Below, piece by piece: positions 4,347-23,559 of a stretch of 26,074 bases of DNA. The stretch covers positions 1-26,074 of the forward strand of contig JAUSPT010000052.1 of assembly GCA_030652805.1 (NCBI GenBank). The letters run 5' to 3'. Made by a program: the position numbers and the translations under genes. How positions within the stretch are numbered: position 1 is the first letter of the stretch; each line of letters opens with the position of its first letter. The notes beneath the pieces are model-generated. The model was given only the letters and a program-made list of their open reading frames with translations. It ran no database searches and had not been told where the DNA came from. The DNA comes from a bacterium (GTDB taxonomy: Bacteria; JAHJDO01).

Positions 4347-5392
4347 TTTTTACTCCATGGATATACTAGAACTTTAAGAGATTCTTTGTTTTTCATAAGT
4401 TCAATCCCTTCATGTATTTCATCAAGAGATACGTGATGTGTTATAATTGCTTGTGTGCTAATTTTCTTTTCAGCCATCAGACTCACTGCTTTACGAACAT
4501 GTTCCGGCCGAGAATCAGATGCTCCAATAATGCGGAGTTCATTATAGTGAATTATACGGCTGTCAAAAGTTGTATCAGATGCACCTTTTGGAAGGCTTGC
4601 AAAAAGACTGACAGCACCACCTTTGCGAGCATACTGTAGAGACGATTCCTGTGCTTCCCGGCTGGGTGCACAAACTATTACAACATCTGCTCCGAGTTCA
4701 CTTGTAGCTTTTTTCACCACATCAGAAGTATTTTCATTAGTGCCATCAATTACAGTAACATCTCTTAACCTGCGCAGCATTGACAACCTTGGTTCAGAAC
4801 GCTGTACGATCATAACATTCTTTGCTCCTCTTGCTTTAGCAAGTTCAGCATGAATAGCACCTAACGGCCCGCCGCCAATAATAAGAACGGAATTATCTGC
4901 CTTTAATCCAGCGAGTTCCTGGGCGTTGATTGCGCAACTGAGAGGTTCACTCAATGAAGCAGTCTCGTCCGGAACTGAGTCTGGAACTTTAATCACATTA
5001 CCGTCTGAAAGTGCCTGTGGAGGAATTGTTATATATTCAGCAAAAGCGCCGTCAAAATCATAACTGATAGGCATGGCATTAGGACACATATTGCTCAGAC
5101 CAAGAGCGCAAATTTGACAGGTTCCACATGCAATTGTTGTAGCAAGTGTAATGCGCTCCTTAACAGAAAATCTCTCAACATCTTTCCCCACATGCACAAT
5201 ACTGCCTACCATTTCATGCCCGATTATTCTTGGAGGATGACAACGAGGATTTCCCACAGTTGCCAGTTTCAGATCAGTACCACAGATTGCGCAGCAATGC
5301 ACCTTGACAATCATGTTTTTATTCGTTGGCTCTGGATCAGGTCTCTGCTCAACACGGATATCACCTGGTCCATAATAAACAGCTGCTTTCAT
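4343..5392 (-). CDS. Zinc-dependent alcohol/sorbitol dehydrogenase (MDR superfamily)
   Basis: Medium-chain dehydrogenase of 349 residues from the ATG at 5392. Catalytic zinc ligands are C37 (CAICGTD) and the H59-E60 pair in GHE. The structural zinc site is complete: C89, C92, C95 and C103. The Rossmann glycine motif is IIGGGPLGA. Family members (threonine, sorbitol, galactitol-phosphate and related dehydrogenases) oxidise polyols or amino alcohols with NAD(P). The frame extends upstream to a TTG at 5410, but ATG 5392 is preferred because AAGGAAGAG stands just before it and it starts one base after the DHDPS-family stop. The stop overlaps the next SDR by 4 bp. A keto-sugar or keto-cyclitol role in the pathway is inference. 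Confidence 0.87.
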   Translation of the reverse strand: MKAAVYYGPGDIRVEQRPDPEPTNKNMIVKVHCCAICGTDLKLATVGNPRCHPPRIIGHEMVGSIVHVGKDVERFSVKERITLATTIACGTCQICALGLSNMCPNAMPISYDFDGAFAEYITIPPQALSDGNVIKVPDSVPDETASLSEPLSCAINAQELAGLKADNSVLIIGGGPLGAIHAELAKARGAKNVMIVQRSEPRLSMLRRLRDVTVIDGTNENTSDVVKKATSELGADVVIVCAPSREAQESSLQYARKGGAVSLFASLPKGASDTTFDSRIIHYNELRIIGASDSRPEHVRKAVSLMAEKKISTQAIITHHVSLDEIHEGIELMKNKESLKVLVYPWSKK

Positions 5393-5393
5393 A

Positions 5394-6326
5394 TTATCTC
5401 TTCCTTTCAACGAGTTCTCTTGCTTCTGCGCAAATCTCTATCGCCTTCAATGCGTTGTCTTTAATCCAATCGAGACACTCTCCCTCGTGTTCAAGCAGAA
5501 TATTTTCACATATCCCCCGATGTCTAAGCGCAGTATTGATAAATTGAAAAAGCGTGGATACTTCCGGCCTGCGCGCAAAACAAGAGTTCATCAGATTTAT
5601 TAATTCAGTTATTTTCCCCTGTATGCTGCGAGCAAGATCATATTGCTTTTTCCTTACAGAGCGATAGAGTTCAACAAAAGGAATAGGATCAATATGAATA
5701 AGACTTGCAACAACACCTGACGCCCCGGCAATCAAGGAATCAGCTACAAGATTTTCTTTGCCCTGAAGAAGATAGAAATCATGCGCGTTTTCCAGAAGCT
5801 TAAGCAGGGTTTTAAACCGTTCCATATCAGCGCTGGAATCCTTAAACCCAATGACATTTTCATGTTTGGAAAGGCGTGATACCATTTGCACATCCAGCTT
5901 TATTCCAGCAAATACAGGTATATCATAGATTACAACTGGAAGCGGGCTGGTATCTGCAAACTGTAAAAAGATAGACTCAATTTCTTTGTGGTTATAATTG
6001 AAATAACCTGGTGCAGTCAGAACAGCAACTTGTGCTCCAGCATCTGCCATTGACCGTGTGTTCTCAAGCATTTCAGACAGACCTGACGCCATACAGCCTG
6101 CAAAGAGTGGAACATGTTCGTCAATGTACTGCTTAACAGTTTTGCAGATTTTGGTTTTAGTCTTCAGGTCAAACCACGGACCACGGCCAGTACTTCCTGC
6201 AACAAAAATGCCTTTGCATCCAGATTCCAGAACATAAGTGCATACAGCTTTCAGTCCATCAAGGTCAACTTCTCCTGTTTTTGAACACGGAGTTACAACT
6301 GGTACTAACACACCAAAGTCTTTCAT
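5394..6326 (-). CDS. DHDPS/N-acetylneuraminate lyase-family aldolase
   Basis: Class I (Schiff-base) aldolase of the DapA/NanA superfamily, 310 residues. The carboxylate-binding loop is G44-S-T-G, closer to the GSTGE of N-acetylneuraminate lyase than to the GTTGE of DapA, but with R48 in place of the usual Glu. Y134 (VVIYDIP) and the Schiff-base lysine K162 (GFKDSS) are in place. These enzymes cleave or form 2-keto acids with pyruvate or a related keto acid as one partner. True DapA is unlikely, since the gene sits in a catabolic operon. N-acetylneuraminate lyase, keto-deoxy-sugar-acid aldolase or a dehydratase-type member remain possible. AAGGAGGAG lies 5 nt before the ATG. It is followed after one base by the alcohol dehydrogenase. 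Confidence 0.83.
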   Translation of the reverse strand: MKDFGVLVPVVTPCSKTGEVDLDGLKAVCTYVLESGCKGIFVAGSTGRGPWFDLKTKTKICKTVKQYIDEHVPLFAGCMASGLSEMLENTRSMADAGAQVAVLTAPGYFNYNHKEIESIFLQFADTSPLPVVIYDIPVFAGIKLDVQMVSRLSKHENVIGFKDSSADMERFKTLLKLLENAHDFYLLQGKENLVADSLIAGASGVVASLIHIDPIPFVELYRSVRKKQYDLARSIQGKITELINLMNSCFARRPEVSTLFQFINTALRHRGICENILLEHEGECLDWIKDNALKAIEICAEARELVERKR

Positions 6327-7972: not shown

Positions 7973-9268
7973 TCAAGCAAAATAGCGGATCGTATCCGCC
8001 AGTGCATTAACCTGTGCATTGACTTTACTAAGTGTCTGCATGCCTGTTTTAAACAGACACATGTACTTGCGATATTTTTCAACGTTCGGACAATCGACCT
8101 CTTTATAGCTTTTGACTTTACCCTTATAACGCGGGTCAAAGTTTGGGGAACGATCCTTTGAACCAAAAAAGGCCATGTTCTGAAAAGCGGGCTCAAGGTG
8201 AACAGGCATCCAAAGTCCGTATAGACCGTCGCCACCATGTTCAATAAATACCTTCCGAAACCGACGCCAATCTACATCAAGTTTCTTTTCGTCAAGTTTA
8301 CACGGATAACACCAGTAGGAATGGGTGTATTCTTCAGGAACGACCGGCGGAATAAGCCATTCACACTTCTCTTGGCGGATAACGGTCTCATATTGATGGG
8401 CAATATATCTGCGTGCAGCTACCAACCAGTCTAAACGTTCGAGCTGTGCTAGTCCCAGTGCTGCCTGCGGCGCAGACATACGAAAATTATACCCCATCCG
8501 CTCATGTCGCTCGAATGACCAATCTTGGCGAATATCCCGCGGAATCATAGTGGAACCAGGCTTGGCATCAAGAGTGCGATACCCTTGCACTGCGATTTTT
8601 CTGATATTACGAGCATAAACCTCATCATTTGTAATTACCATACCACCATCACCACCACTAGTCATATGCTTCGAACCCTGGAAACTAAAACTCGCCGCAT
8701 GGCCAATTGTTCCCACAAGTTTGCCATTATACAAAGAGAGAAAACACTGTGCATCATCCTCTATAATCGTAAGATTATTTTTCTTAGCAAGAGTCAAGAT
8801 AGCATCGAAATCAGGTGGCAGACCGAATAAACTAACGGGGATAATCGCCTTAGTAAACTCTGTGATTTTACGTTCAATATCAACAGAGTCAATGGTAAAC
8901 GTATTCGGATCACTGTCAGCAAAAACAGGCACTGCTCCGCATTGAACTACAACAAAGGCTGTGGCAGCCATGGTAGATGTAGGTACAATGACTTCGTCAC
9001 CAGGTCCAATACCTGCGGCAATCAAACAAGATAACATTGTTCCTGATCCCGAGTTGTGTGAAATAGCGAATTTGCTCCCGAACTTCTCGGCAAAAGCTGT
9101 TTCAAAACGGGCAATCATATTTGCCGACTCCTTATTGCCAAATCCGTCCTCAAACACTTCATTCATATATTTGCGATCAGAGTCTCCGCAACGATTAGCA
9201 GGCAAGTGACTGAATATCTCAGCAGGATCTAATTTTTTAGGGTCCATTGTTACAAGAGGATTGATCAT
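7973..9268 (-). CDS. DegT/DnrJ/EryC1/StrS-family PLP aminotransferase
   Basis: Fold-type I sugar aminotransferase of 431 residues. The internal aldimine lysine is K200 in FQGSKHMTSGGDGG. The cofactor is also held by the D171-D172-A-Q174 segment of IEDDAQ and the HNSGSGT loop at 71-77. Family members transaminate keto-sugars or keto-cyclitols; a minority act as dehydratases, but those replace the Lys with His. The frame extends further upstream, but ATG 9268 is chosen because AAAGGAG is 7 nt before it and it forms an ATGA overlap with the M81 gene stop. A decayed copy of codons 14-40 lies at 10875-10954. With an upstream dehydrogenase it could carry out oxidation followed by amination, or the reverse deamination, of a sugar ring. 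Confidence 0.87.
   Translation of the reverse strand: MINPLVTMDPKKLDPAEIFSHLPANRCGDSDRKYMNEVFEDGFGNKESANMIARFETAFAEKFGSKFAISHNSGSGTMLSCLIAAGIGPGDEVIVPTSTMAATAFVVVQCGAVPVFADSDPNTFTIDSVDIERKITEFTKAIIPVSLFGLPPDFDAILTLAKKNNLTIIEDDAQCFLSLYNGKLVGTIGHAASFSFQGSKHMTSGGDGGMVITNDEVYARNIRKIAVQGYRTLDAKPGSTMIPRDIRQDWSFERHERMGYNFRMSAPQAALGLAQLERLDWLVAARRYIAHQYETVIRQEKCEWLIPPVVPEEYTHSYWCYPCKLDEKKLDVDWRRFRKVFIEHGGDGLYGLWMPVHLEPAFQNMAFFGSKDRSPNFDPRYKGKVKSYKEVDCPNVEKYRKYMCLFKTGMQTLSKVNAQVNALADTIRYFA
9161..9240. repeat. 80-bp segment of the DegT gene duplicated at 10875-10954
   Basis: Aligned without gaps by eye, 9161-9240 and 10875-10954 agree at 67 of 80 positions. Several differences are silent or conservative in the DegT frame, so the second copy diverged for a time as coding sequence. 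The two copies are in direct orientation and flank the M81 metallopeptidase gene. Confidence 0.85.
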
Positions 9269-10803
9269 TGCTTTTCTCCTTTCAGATTTAACTCTTTTTG
9301 CATGCCCGGCTCCCACTTAAAATATGGGTCAATCGGAAAAATCGGGCGCAGCACACGCTTGAATTCATAATTACGGAGATTGTACGACAAGGCTCCGGGA
9401 CAATCAGCCGCAAAAACATTTTTTGCAGCATGGGCGTAGGTTACCTTGTAGCCGATGCCCGTTTTTAACGCCACAATCTTTGCATCAAACGGCTCGAGAC
9501 CGACTTTTCTGAAAAGCGATGGCTGCGGCCCCATGATGAGACGCTCGGTTATTACTAATCTGACATTGTCTATGCCAAGACAGACTATCGCCCCAACCTC
9601 GACTAGCGGCTTGGGGGTAAACTTGCCGTCATTGCTAATGAAACCTTCCGTAACACAGAGGATTTCTCCCGTTACAGATACAGGCTTACAGAAGCGGGAA
9701 TCGCGCTTACCGCCGACCCTTACAGTGACAGTGTCTCCGACCTTTGATACCTTCAAGATCGAGACAGTTTCTGCATCCGGGATATGATGGAGTATCAAAC
9801 CTTCTGTCTCGCCGCGCAATTTCAACAGAGCTTCCAGCATTACCGTGTTGTCTCCACCAGCTCCCCCGCCAACGTTATCAGCCGAATCGGTGATAACTAT
9901 AGGGCATCCGGGAGCAGCGGCAGCTTGGCGAACAGCAGACTCAGGCGATAGCATCGGCTCAGGCATAAACATGTGGCGGGCTTCCCAGCACATCTCGGCA
10001 AGCTCCCGCGCAAGCCTGCAGCCAAGCTCTTTGTTATTGTCTGTGACAGCCAGTGCTGCCCAGCCCTGTTCAGGGACATCCTGCCACGCAAAAGCCGGAC
10101 ACAGTGAACAAGCAATCACACCATCAACATGATCCAAGTCGATTAATTTATCAAACAGCTCTTTAAGTGGACCTGAGTCGGTGCCATCATTAGGCGTGGG
10201 AAAGATCATCGGTATTTTCTGACAGTGCATCACAGGCCTTGTCTTGCCTGCCAATACATCCAAAAGGATGCTGGCTGCCAGCATACCAGTTTCGACAACA
10301 TCTTTGTGTGGGTGGGTGCGGTACGCTACAAGGGCCGTGGTAAGATCAACCATCTGTTGCGTCACCACAGCGTGGCAATCCAGGGGACACACAATGGGAA
10401 TGTCTGATCCCAATTCCTCGCGGAGGACCTGCAGGAAATAGCCATCAAGATCCACAGCCGATTCAGCACACATGGCTCCGTGTAACGCAAAACAGATACC
10501 GTCAAGCTGCCCCGCCTTTCGCAACTGTCCACGCAGAATATCCTCCAGATAACTAACAGCGTGGTCTGTAATATACCCTGCAGGCAGCGCTTCCGCACTA
10601 AGCAGGGGAACAATGTCAACCTGGCCGTTCCGACGAAAAACATCCACAGCGCCCGCCATTTCATCGCGACTTTCCGATTCCAAAATGTCATTGCCGATAC
10701 GTATTCCGTTGCAGGAGGAAAAATCACTTAGCGGTGTTTTCGCAGGACAAAAGGTGTTAGATTCGTGCCAAAATTTACCGATACCGATTCGAAAAACAGG
10801 CAT
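9265..10803 (-). CDS. M81-family (MlrC-like) metallopeptidase/hydrolase
   Basis: Protein of 512 residues with the two-part architecture of M81 (MlrC N-terminal catalytic and C-terminal domains). The N-terminus holds F-W-H13-E14-SNTF. The metal site reads H108 (ALHGAM), D142-x-H144 (PLDCH) and H166 (THPHKD), and the spacing follows the MlrC ligand pattern as I recall it. Around residue 305 comes the glycine-rich DSADNVGGGAGGD motif of the family. The only characterised member, MlrC, cleaves linearised microcystin, but most M81 proteins are environmental amidohydrolases of unknown substrate. Here, between sugar aminotransferases and dehydrogenases, amide or peptide-like bond hydrolysis on a sugar derivative is plausible inference. 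AGAGGAAA precedes the ATG. The gene lies between two copies of a DegT segment, so it was probably placed here by a rearrangement. Confidence 0.85.
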   Translation of the reverse strand: MPVFRIGIGKFWHESNTFCPAKTPLSDFSSCNGIRIGNDILESESRDEMAGAVDVFRRNGQVDIVPLLSAEALPAGYITDHAVSYLEDILRGQLRKAGQLDGICFALHGAMCAESAVDLDGYFLQVLREELGSDIPIVCPLDCHAVVTQQMVDLTTALVAYRTHPHKDVVETGMLAASILLDVLAGKTRPVMHCQKIPMIFPTPNDGTDSGPLKELFDKLIDLDHVDGVIACSLCPAFAWQDVPEQGWAALAVTDNNKELGCRLARELAEMCWEARHMFMPEPMLSPESAVRQAAAAPGCPIVITDSADNVGGGAGGDNTVMLEALLKLRGETEGLILHHIPDAETVSILKVSKVGDTVTVRVGGKRDSRFCKPVSVTGEILCVTEGFISNDGKFTPKPLVEVGAIVCLGIDNVRLVITERLIMGPQPSLFRKVGLEPFDAKIVALKTGIGYKVTYAHAAKNVFAADCPGALSYNLRNYEFKRVLRPIFPIDPYFKWEPGMQKELNLKGEKQ

Positions 10804-10859
10804 GTTTGTTTCCTCTTTTAAGTATATGCCATTTTCAGGCTTTCACAATTAGAAATAGT

Positions 10860-10946
10860 TTAACTAAATATCTCATTCATATATTTGCAGTCGGTCTTTC
10901 CGCAACGATTAGCAGGTAGGTGACTGAATATCTCAGGAGGATTCAA
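10860..10946 (-). pseudogene. Decayed DegT aminotransferase fragment (28-codon remnant)
   Basis: Read on the minus strand from TTG 10946, this encodes a 28-residue peptide containing EIFSHLPANRCG and KYMNE and closes at a TAA at 10860-10862. It matches residues 14-40 of the DegT protein downstream, which has the same EIFSHLPANRCG. A strong GGAGGAGG stands 8 nt before the TTG, inside the sialidase-like gene, so the remnant may still be translated. It overlaps the sialidase-like 3' end by 14 bp. The true DegT N-terminal extension is absent, so the copy began internally. It fills most of the gap between the sialidase-like and M81 genes. Confidence 0.8.
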
Positions 10947-12252
10947 TTTTATTGCCTCCTCCTTTTATCTGATTTGCTTTAAACTGTCGTTCTGCCATAC
11001 CAAAAGTCATCTTCACAAATGGCTGTCCTGACGGGTGTAACCATGGCAAATCTCCTTCCGGAAAAAGGATACAATCAGAACGGGTTACAATATAACCTCT
11101 GATATGCGCCAGGGGAGCATCATCATTGATGTAGTCAACCACGTAGATATCTCCGGAATCCAGCTGGACCCAGCCAGAATAGCCGCCGTCCCTGTGCACG
11201 CTACGGTCGATGTCTATGACATAAGTAATACCGGGATAATAGGAAGTCATATATGATGGACGTGAAGAATCATTGACGTCTATCCAATCCTCAGGAATTG
11301 GCTGTCGCTTGACCCTCGGAGACGCACCCTCATGTTTTGCCGCTTCCTGGGTCATTAGATGAAGCGCCAGCATCTCATTAGGGACCCCCATACGATAGGT
11401 AATACAGATTTCCCCTGAACGAAGTAATCCTGTCTTGGGACGACCTTCAAGGCCAATGAGTTGTGTTGGGAACGGACCTTTCCATGTCTGCCCGCCGTCG
11501 TATGACAATGTCTTGTAGGCTCGTCCCAGGTTATCGTCGCGAAGAATACCTAAGATTGTTCCGTCATCAAGTTCGACAAAACTGCCTTCGGAGAAATTCT
11601 GGCCTGATTCGGAGGGTATCTCTACAGGATCCGACCAGCTCTTACCCTTGTCATCAGAGAAAAAAACAAGTTGTATCTCTTTCGAAGCTCCCTTTTTATC
11701 TTGCTCAGATCGCGCAAGACCTAGCATAAGCCGACCATCACGTAACTCATTCAATGAGGGTACAAGAGCATTGGAAATGCCGGGGTCTTCCGGACCAACC
11801 CAGGTTACGCCGGAATTAAAGCTCCGGTAAATCAGATTGATCCACTTATAGTCACGGTTGCCAGTTGCGTAGTGCACCGCATAGTCAGCTATCATAATCA
11901 GCTGACCGTCGCTCAGGCAAAGAAGTCGCATGCAGTTGATAGAAGCACCGTTTTTCCATGATTCAGTAATACGAGCCTTGCTCTCCTCATAGCCACTGAT
12001 TTCATCATCAGACAGCCACGAACGGTTCTTGTCAATATGTTTCTCAGGAGATACACACTCGTCAATAATCTGTTTTGGCAACCATGTTCGCCCGCCGTCA
12101 AGACTGCGACGGACGGCAATACGAGAGAACGGAAAGGGAGCATGCTGCATAGACTCCCTGTAGATGCAAACGAGCGTTCCATCCGGTGTCATCGCAATGT
12201 CCGGAAAACATTCGTAAATGTGGTCATCACGAGAAACAATTAATTTTATCAT
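10933..12252 (-). CDS. Sialidase-superfamily (BNR/Asp-box) protein, probably intracellular glycosidase
   Basis: Six-bladed beta-propeller type protein of 439 residues. Four Asp-box-like repeats are visible: SLDGGRTW (50-57), SFNSGVTW (144-151, degenerate), SDDKGKSW (199-206) and SYDGGQTW (250-257). There is no signal peptide and no clear FRIP motif near the N-terminus, where canonical sialidases place the first catalytic Arg; an Arg is present in IYRES (residue 32). It may act on a glycoside other than sialic acid. The start is well supported by GGAGGG 5 nt upstream. Its last five codons overlap the DegT remnant, so the original C-terminus may have differed. Family assignment is good; catalytic activity is uncertain. 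Confidence 0.78.
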   Translation of the reverse strand: MIKLIVSRDDHIYECFPDIAMTPDGTLVCIYRESMQHAPFPFSRIAVRRSLDGGRTWLPKQIIDECVSPEKHIDKNRSWLSDDEISGYEESKARITESWKNGASINCMRLLCLSDGQLIMIADYAVHYATGNRDYKWINLIYRSFNSGVTWVGPEDPGISNALVPSLNELRDGRLMLGLARSEQDKKGASKEIQLVFFSDDKGKSWSDPVEIPSESGQNFSEGSFVELDDGTILGILRDDNLGRAYKTLSYDGGQTWKGPFPTQLIGLEGRPKTGLLRSGEICITYRMGVPNEMLALHLMTQEAAKHEGASPRVKRQPIPEDWIDVNDSSRPSYMTSYYPGITYVIDIDRSVHRDGGYSGWVQLDSGDIYVVDYINDDAPLAHIRGYIVTRSDCILFPEGDLPWLHPSGQPFVKMTFGMAERQFKANQIKGGGNKIESS

Positions 12253-21802: not shown

Positions 21803-21846
21803 TGAAACCACTCTTCTACATCTATTGAAAGCGCGTTAAGCATGAT
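21803..21846. repeat. 44-bp direct repeat, right copy (island boundary, tsaC 3' end)
   Basis: Identical to 1468-1511. Here the segment contains the last seven codons and stop of tsaC (21822-21824) and, in another frame on the same strand, an ATG (21843-21841) followed by the first 13 codons of the deacetylase, which are cut off by island sequence at 21802. It therefore preserves the ancestral tsaC/deacetylase overlap. Confidence 0.95.
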
Positions 21847-22442
21847 TTTATCTGACTTGCTAGGGCACCTTCACGTAATATTGAGGGTGGACTAACACTA
21901 CAGTCTACAACAGTGGATTCTATTCCAGTTGGTATCTCATTATCGTCAATACATAAATCTGCTTTATTCTCAAATATCTTCTCTAGCACCTTAATTGAAG
22001 TTGCTTGATGGTTATATCCAGAGATATTAGCACTTGTTGTAGCAATAGGCACTCCTAATTCCTTTACTAGAAATCGCGGTATTGGATGATTGGGTATTCT
22101 AAAACTTATTGTATTGAAATTATCTGTTTTAAAGATACATGCTTGAGATATTGGAATATTTTCCTTTGCTCTTAAGATAATTGTGAGCGGACCGGGCCAA
22201 AACTTGTTCATAAGCTTTCTTGCTATTGGCTGGATGTCACAAGCAATATCTTCTACTTGCTTTAAGTCTGAAATAAATAAAATTAAAGGTTTTCTACGGT
22301 CTCTGTTTTTTAGGTCATAAATCCTATCTACGGCTTGTTCGCTGCTGCACATGCATCCAAGACCATAAACAGTATCAGTTGGAAAGATTACAACTCTGCC
22401 TTTTCTTAAGACTTTAACCGCCGAGTATCTGTTTATCCTCAT
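21822..22442 (-). CDS. tsaC: Threonylcarbamoyl-AMP synthase (Sua5/YrdC/YciO family)
   Basis: YrdC-domain protein of 206 residues. It makes threonylcarbamoyl-AMP from threonine, bicarbonate and ATP for the t6A modification of ANN-decoding tRNAs. Family hallmarks appear in order: VVIFPTDTVYGLG (17-29), KNRDRRKPL (45-53), FWPGPLTIIL, SFRIPNHP, PIATTSANISG and GIESTVVDCS followed by ILREGAL. Only the single YrdC domain is present, as in TsaC, with no Sua5 C-terminal domain. The start overlaps the end of pilT by 29 bp. The last codons lie in the 44-bp repeat, so the island left the protein intact. YciO-type paralogues without proven function are the alternative. Confidence 0.9.
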   Translation of the reverse strand: MRINRYSAVKVLRKGRVVIFPTDTVYGLGCMCSSEQAVDRIYDLKNRDRRKPLILFISDLKQVEDIACDIQPIARKLMNKFWPGPLTIILRAKENIPISQACIFKTDNFNTISFRIPNHPIPRFLVKELGVPIATTSANISGYNHQATSIKVLEKIFENKADLCIDDNEIPTGIESTVVDCSVSPPSILREGALASQIKSCLTRFQ

Positions 22443-23519: not shown

Positions 23520-23559
23520 TCATCTTTCCCTCTCTTTTTAAGAGAGGGAAAGGGGATGA
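23520..23559. promoter_or_regulatory. Strong hairpin between ftsZ and pilT
   Basis: A 12-bp perfect stem (TTTCCCTCTCTT at 23525-23536 with AAGAGAGGGAAA at 23540-23551) closes a 3-base loop. It is extended by TCATC/GATGA arms after a 3-base GGG bulge, and fills almost the whole 40-bp ftsZ-pilT gap. In the minus-strand transcript no U-run follows, so it is not a standard terminator. It buries the upstream pilT ATG (23523) and its GAGAGGG. Confidence 0.7.

Follow-up and report, generated by a model that had tools for sequence, protein, structure and literature searches.

In the window (the whole stretch of 26,074 nucleotides that was analysed), a sialidase-like BNR gene is followed by a short DegT-like stub, an M81/MlrC gene, an intact DegT aminotransferase gene, two short-chain dehydrogenase genes and more genes of sugar type, all on the minus strand. 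The stub and the intact DegT gene stand on either side of M81, and the junction comprises the following features:

7973..9268, minus strand, intact DegT/DnrJ/EryC1/StrS aminotransferase gene (PF01041), whose ATGA start overlaps the stop of M81
9265..10803, minus strand, M81/MlrC-like gene (PF07364, PF07171), between both DegT copies
10804..10865, minus strand, junction DNA from the stub to M81, with no detectable DegT homology and carrying the ribosome site of M81
10860..10946, minus strand, residual stub frame of 28 residues (LNPPEIFSHLPANRCGKTDCKYMNEIFS) with a TTG start and a TAA stop
10866..10959, minus strand, DegT 5' stub, homologous to codons around residues 10-39 of the intact DegT
10933..12252, minus strand, sialidase-like BNR gene (PF13088), whose stop falls within the stub
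10935..10963, minus strand, predicted hairpin of 7 + 4 pairs (-14.9 kcal/mol), covering the ribosome site and start of the stub frame
10955..10962, minus strand, GGAGGAGG, Shine-Dalgarno-like, within the final codons of the sialidase-like gene

A preliminary description of this DNA had reported that the stub repeats part of the DegT gene in direct orientation, with 67 matching positions and a peptide encoded in both copies. Our comparisons confirmed the direct repeat and moved the limits of the homology to 10866-10959, which pairs with 9152-9245 over 94 nt (81% identity, spacing 1714). Self-blastn aligned 9159-9236 with 10873-10950 (85.9% identity, E 2e-19), finding the same 67 matches over 78 bp, and this pair was the top-scoring repeat of the window. 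The peptide EIFSHLPANRCG is indeed encoded by both the stub and the intact DegT gene. A search of all 2.0 Mb of the genome with the stub DNA matched only the stub itself and the intact DegT gene (E 5e-20), and the local alignment score of the stub was 120 vs. a maximum of 60 among 1870 random window segments. Other DegT genes of the same genome were considered as the source of the stub and rejected, the best being just 42% identical.

Read in register from TTA/TTG to TTT, 67 of 81 bp are identical between the stub and the DegT gene. Over the next 42 bp the identity drops to 13/42, a chance-level value that 26% of random segments reach, which indicates that the homology ends abruptly at 10866. 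An extension of the stub to 10824 by a six-frame search was rejected, since past codon 27 of the block the DNA shows the same 13/42 identity. At the upstream edge the similarity fades around position 10959; GGAGGAGG and GCAAT upstream of the stub look like the DegT leader in an alignment that is gapped and ambiguous there, and the stub is without the MINPLVTMD with which the intact DegT starts. The ribosome site, TTG start and 28-residue frame of the preliminary description are present, with the frame now placed at 10946-10860 (TTG at 10946, TAA at 10862-10860). With the frame closing there, the homology ending at 10866 and ~30 codons of DegT left vs. 431 in the intact gene, the stub cannot encode the enzyme. 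On sequence grounds, 10866-10959 is a real and significant DegT gene remnant (86% over 78 bp, E 5e-20 genome-wide) of an ordinary kind. Like other truncated-gene remnants (PF01041), it shares homology with the N-terminal region of an intact gene, here 1.7 kb away; it retains only ~30/431 codons.

The 14 differences between the stub and the DegT gene fall on codon positions 1/2/3 as 7/0/7. Eleven are transitions, six amino acids are changed, and there is no stop and no indel in the matched codons (dN 0.12, dS 0.61). Under purely neutral change, the probability of seeing no position-2 difference would be 0.0017 and that of six or fewer amino-acid changes 0.05. Position 2 is also the least changed between the DegT of the window and its four relatives. 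The 7/0/7 pattern, together with the lack of indels, suggests that most of the divergence probably arose while both copies were coding, although the sample is small (14 differences). Such coding-like divergence speaks for a second DegT gene rather than for a duplicate that arose on the entry of M81. The stub is altered at residues kept by the family (e.g., R to C in GxxDRxYM), as would be expected of a decaying piece. Sliding identity across DegT revealed no mosaic switch, a comparison to which four distant relatives lend little power.

We scanned 84,980 species genomes for DegT matches. Only four loci with >60% identity were found, in Chloroflexi (L029, 73%), Spirochaetaceae (L030, 69%), Lentisphaeria (L031, 68%) and Planctomycetota (L032, 65%). 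All remaining matches were at 47% or below, and ~1570 further genomes from the same four phyla yielded no additional close relative; this DegT type is rare. In L031, an M81 gene (60%) overlaps DegT by the same ATGA with the same first bases, ATGATCAATCC, and the contig ends just upstream of that M81. M81 and DegT therefore form a unit in a distant phylum as well, and the earlier suggestion that M81 was newly wedged in front of a lone DegT does not agree with an old unit that keeps the same 4-base overlap. In L030, a BNR gene (4601-5947) is followed by a short spacer and then DegT, with no M81 between them. This BNR aligns with that of the window over 96 residues only (35%), whereas the ortholog-like BNR of L030 (39% over the full length) is oriented divergently at 4783-3569. 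BNR and DegT keep company, and the sialidase-DegT pair lacking M81 that the preliminary description had proposed to look for exists in kind, though not at the same locus, its BNR not being the ortholog. The full second copy of this DegT that it had also proposed was found nowhere. The neighbours of DegT differ in L029 and L032.

The sole other strong repeat of the window is likewise direct (1468-1514 and 21803-21849, 47 bp, 97.9%). Its sequence is that of a polysaccharide deacetylase gene (687-1508, PF01522/PF11959) at the 5' end, reading MLNALSIDVEEWF, and at once, in another frame, that of a Sua5/YrdC gene (21822-22442) at the 3' end. The two copies enclose the entire 20 kb metabolic cluster, including the stub and M81-DegT. 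M81 and this DegT are absent from all four congeners, which argues that the cluster is accessory. Its other contents (1515-21802) include a GntR-type regulator, two aminotransferases besides DegT, two UROD-like genes, four short-chain dehydrogenases, a DHDPS-like gene, a PfkB kinase and an aldolase, along with M81. Outside it, an imperfect palindrome of 29 bp (23524-23552) lies between FtsZ and T2SSE-type genes. A phage origin was rejected, with no viral contig carrying a relative, as was a plasmid origin, with plasmid matches all at <60% identity. The window was also searched for a tRNA-type insertion site and contains no tRNA.

Three of the congeners keep MLNALSIDVEE, MLNTLSIDVEE or MLNALSIDVED behind Sua5 and then continue into other sequence. 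In G001 and G002 this stretch is followed by a UROD-type gene, and in G004 by an opposite-strand gene that by eye looks like a glutamyl-tRNA synthetase. In G003 the FAD-oxidase region, which sits past the deacetylase in the window, comes within ~15 bases after Sua5. A close relative of the deacetylase is missing from all four congeners. Insertions and losses thus appear to have recurred at the site behind Sua5. UROD-like genes (~30% identical to that of the window) stand at this same place in two congeners (L105:2161-3243, L108:808-1422), which is another sign of an insertion spot.

As to the origin of the stub, we consider it somewhat probable that a second DegT gene stood behind BNR and that the stub is its 5' end, cut off when the M81-DegT unit was spliced in. 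A functional DegT would once have stood directly downstream of the sialidase-like gene, with its ribosome site in the last codons of that gene. The incoming segment would have carried M81 and then its own DegT. On one side of the join, homologous exchange would have occurred within DegT; on the other, an illegitimate join would have fallen past about codon 39 of the resident DegT, at 10865/10866. The short stub of the resident gene would then be followed by M81 and a complete DegT, and has presumably drifted since as a scar. This is consistent with a highly significant repeat found nowhere else in the genome, with homology that ends abruptly as at a join, with the M81-DegT unit of L031 and the BNR directly before DegT in L030, and with the deacetylase 5' end (47 bp, 98%) as the same kind of scar around the whole cluster. 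Against it, no genome was found in which a BNR ortholog runs into this DegT, sliding identity gave no switch within DegT, and in L030 the BNR before DegT is another paralog. No relative with the same BNR-stub-M81 junction was found among the 84,980 species genomes, the ~1570 phylum genomes and the four congeners, so that the order of events is one that we infer, as we do the resident gene and the one-sided homologous exchange.

It is possible, though unlikely, that a single DegT followed the sialidase-like gene and that insertion of M81 duplicated ~100-150 bp of its 5' end, the upstream copy then decaying neutrally. Direct repeats do flank M81 exactly, and the changes at family-shared residues, such as the R to C replacement, would fit such decay. 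However, 0/14 second-position changes (0.0017 if neutral), a dS of 0.61 vs. a dN of 0.12 and the lack of indels all speak against it, as does the fact that M81-DegT forms a unit elsewhere too. The decayed DegT fragment of the preliminary description is therefore retained, and its fresh duplication at the M81 insertion is leaned against on these figures (7/0/7 by codon position). That description had alternatively supposed that a second DegT gene was deleted. In its full form, with two complete DegT genes once standing before and after M81 and an internal deletion taking most of the first, we regard this as improbable. The coding-like divergence and the many DegT paralogs in the same genome agree with it, but no relative has two close DegT copies and the best other paralog of the genome is that of 42% identity. 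Our data are closer to a second DegT that was present and then cut off.

With regard to a function of the stub itself, the predicted hairpin at 10935-10963 ends at the stop codon of the sialidase-like gene. Its energy ranks in the top 0.9% of 41-base windows, while 19 other predicted starts range from 0 to -5.3, and the region 10790-10965 folds moderately better than shuffles (z -2.2). Given that the ribosome site and TTG lie inside this predicted hairpin, the 28-residue frame is probably poorly translated and its peptide poorly made. At the end of the BNR gene, the hairpin may act in coupling or mRNA stability. Nonetheless, it is very unlikely that the stub has been retained as a functional element, in which a 28-residue leader or coupling frame and the hairpin tune translation between the sialidase-like gene and M81. 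The strong ribosome site before the frame, a hairpin that is alone among 20 starts and the low dN/dS would be in line with such an element; yet the stub codons are DegT residues altered at family-conserved positions, M81 has its own ribosome site, the stub frame stops 56 bases before M81, and a conserved counterpart was not seen. Rfam gave no family match in the window at gathering scores, and a search of the stub for promoters and terminators gave one promoter-like match (1.1 expected) and no terminator. That the DegT leftover was secondarily co-opted as a hairpin-controlled coupling element at the BNR end, regulating expression of M81 and DegT, seems extremely unlikely; if true, it would be a gene fragment turned regulator of both genes. 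An assembly artefact, by which two strain variants would have been joined into a chimera in the draft genome (102 contigs, 2.23% estimated contamination), is scarcely credible, since the copies differ by 14-19% and hence offer no long identical word for a false join, and frames and start signals are intact on both sides.

The proposed splicing of an M81-DegT unit into a resident DegT has a parallel in homology-facilitated illegitimate recombination (HFIR). In transformable bacteria this is an established process in which DNA is inserted by homology on one side only, a deletion of similar size is linked to the insertion, and the joins usually show 3-10 bp of microhomology (PMC3240628). HFIR products have homology at one end, an illegitimate join at the other and a loss of resident DNA (PMC3240628), and a truncated resident gene is predicted beside the new segment, which the stub here would be. 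The sharp loss of homology (67/81, then 13/42) corresponds to the abrupt illegitimate side of such a product. Unlike those products, the present case is known only as an old scar. For displaced type VI modules, an HFIR-like process has likewise been put forward (PMC5361080). In the effector modules of Vibrio cholerae, a new module similarly displaces the resident one and pieces stay beside the new copy (PMC5361080), although what remains there is for the most part entire immunity genes and the 3' ends of effectors, in contrast to the metabolic-gene 5' end seen here.

The two scars of the window share one form, namely an upstream gene, the 5' end of a gene X, inserted DNA and a complete gene X, which is what a one-sided homologous integration of "insert plus X" with an illegitimate join inside the resident X would leave. 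The stub may thus be read as a scar of metabolic cluster assembly in a little-sampled bacterial lineage, and both scars suggest that insertions between tightly packed or overlapping genes survive if the downstream gene has its 5' end in duplicate.
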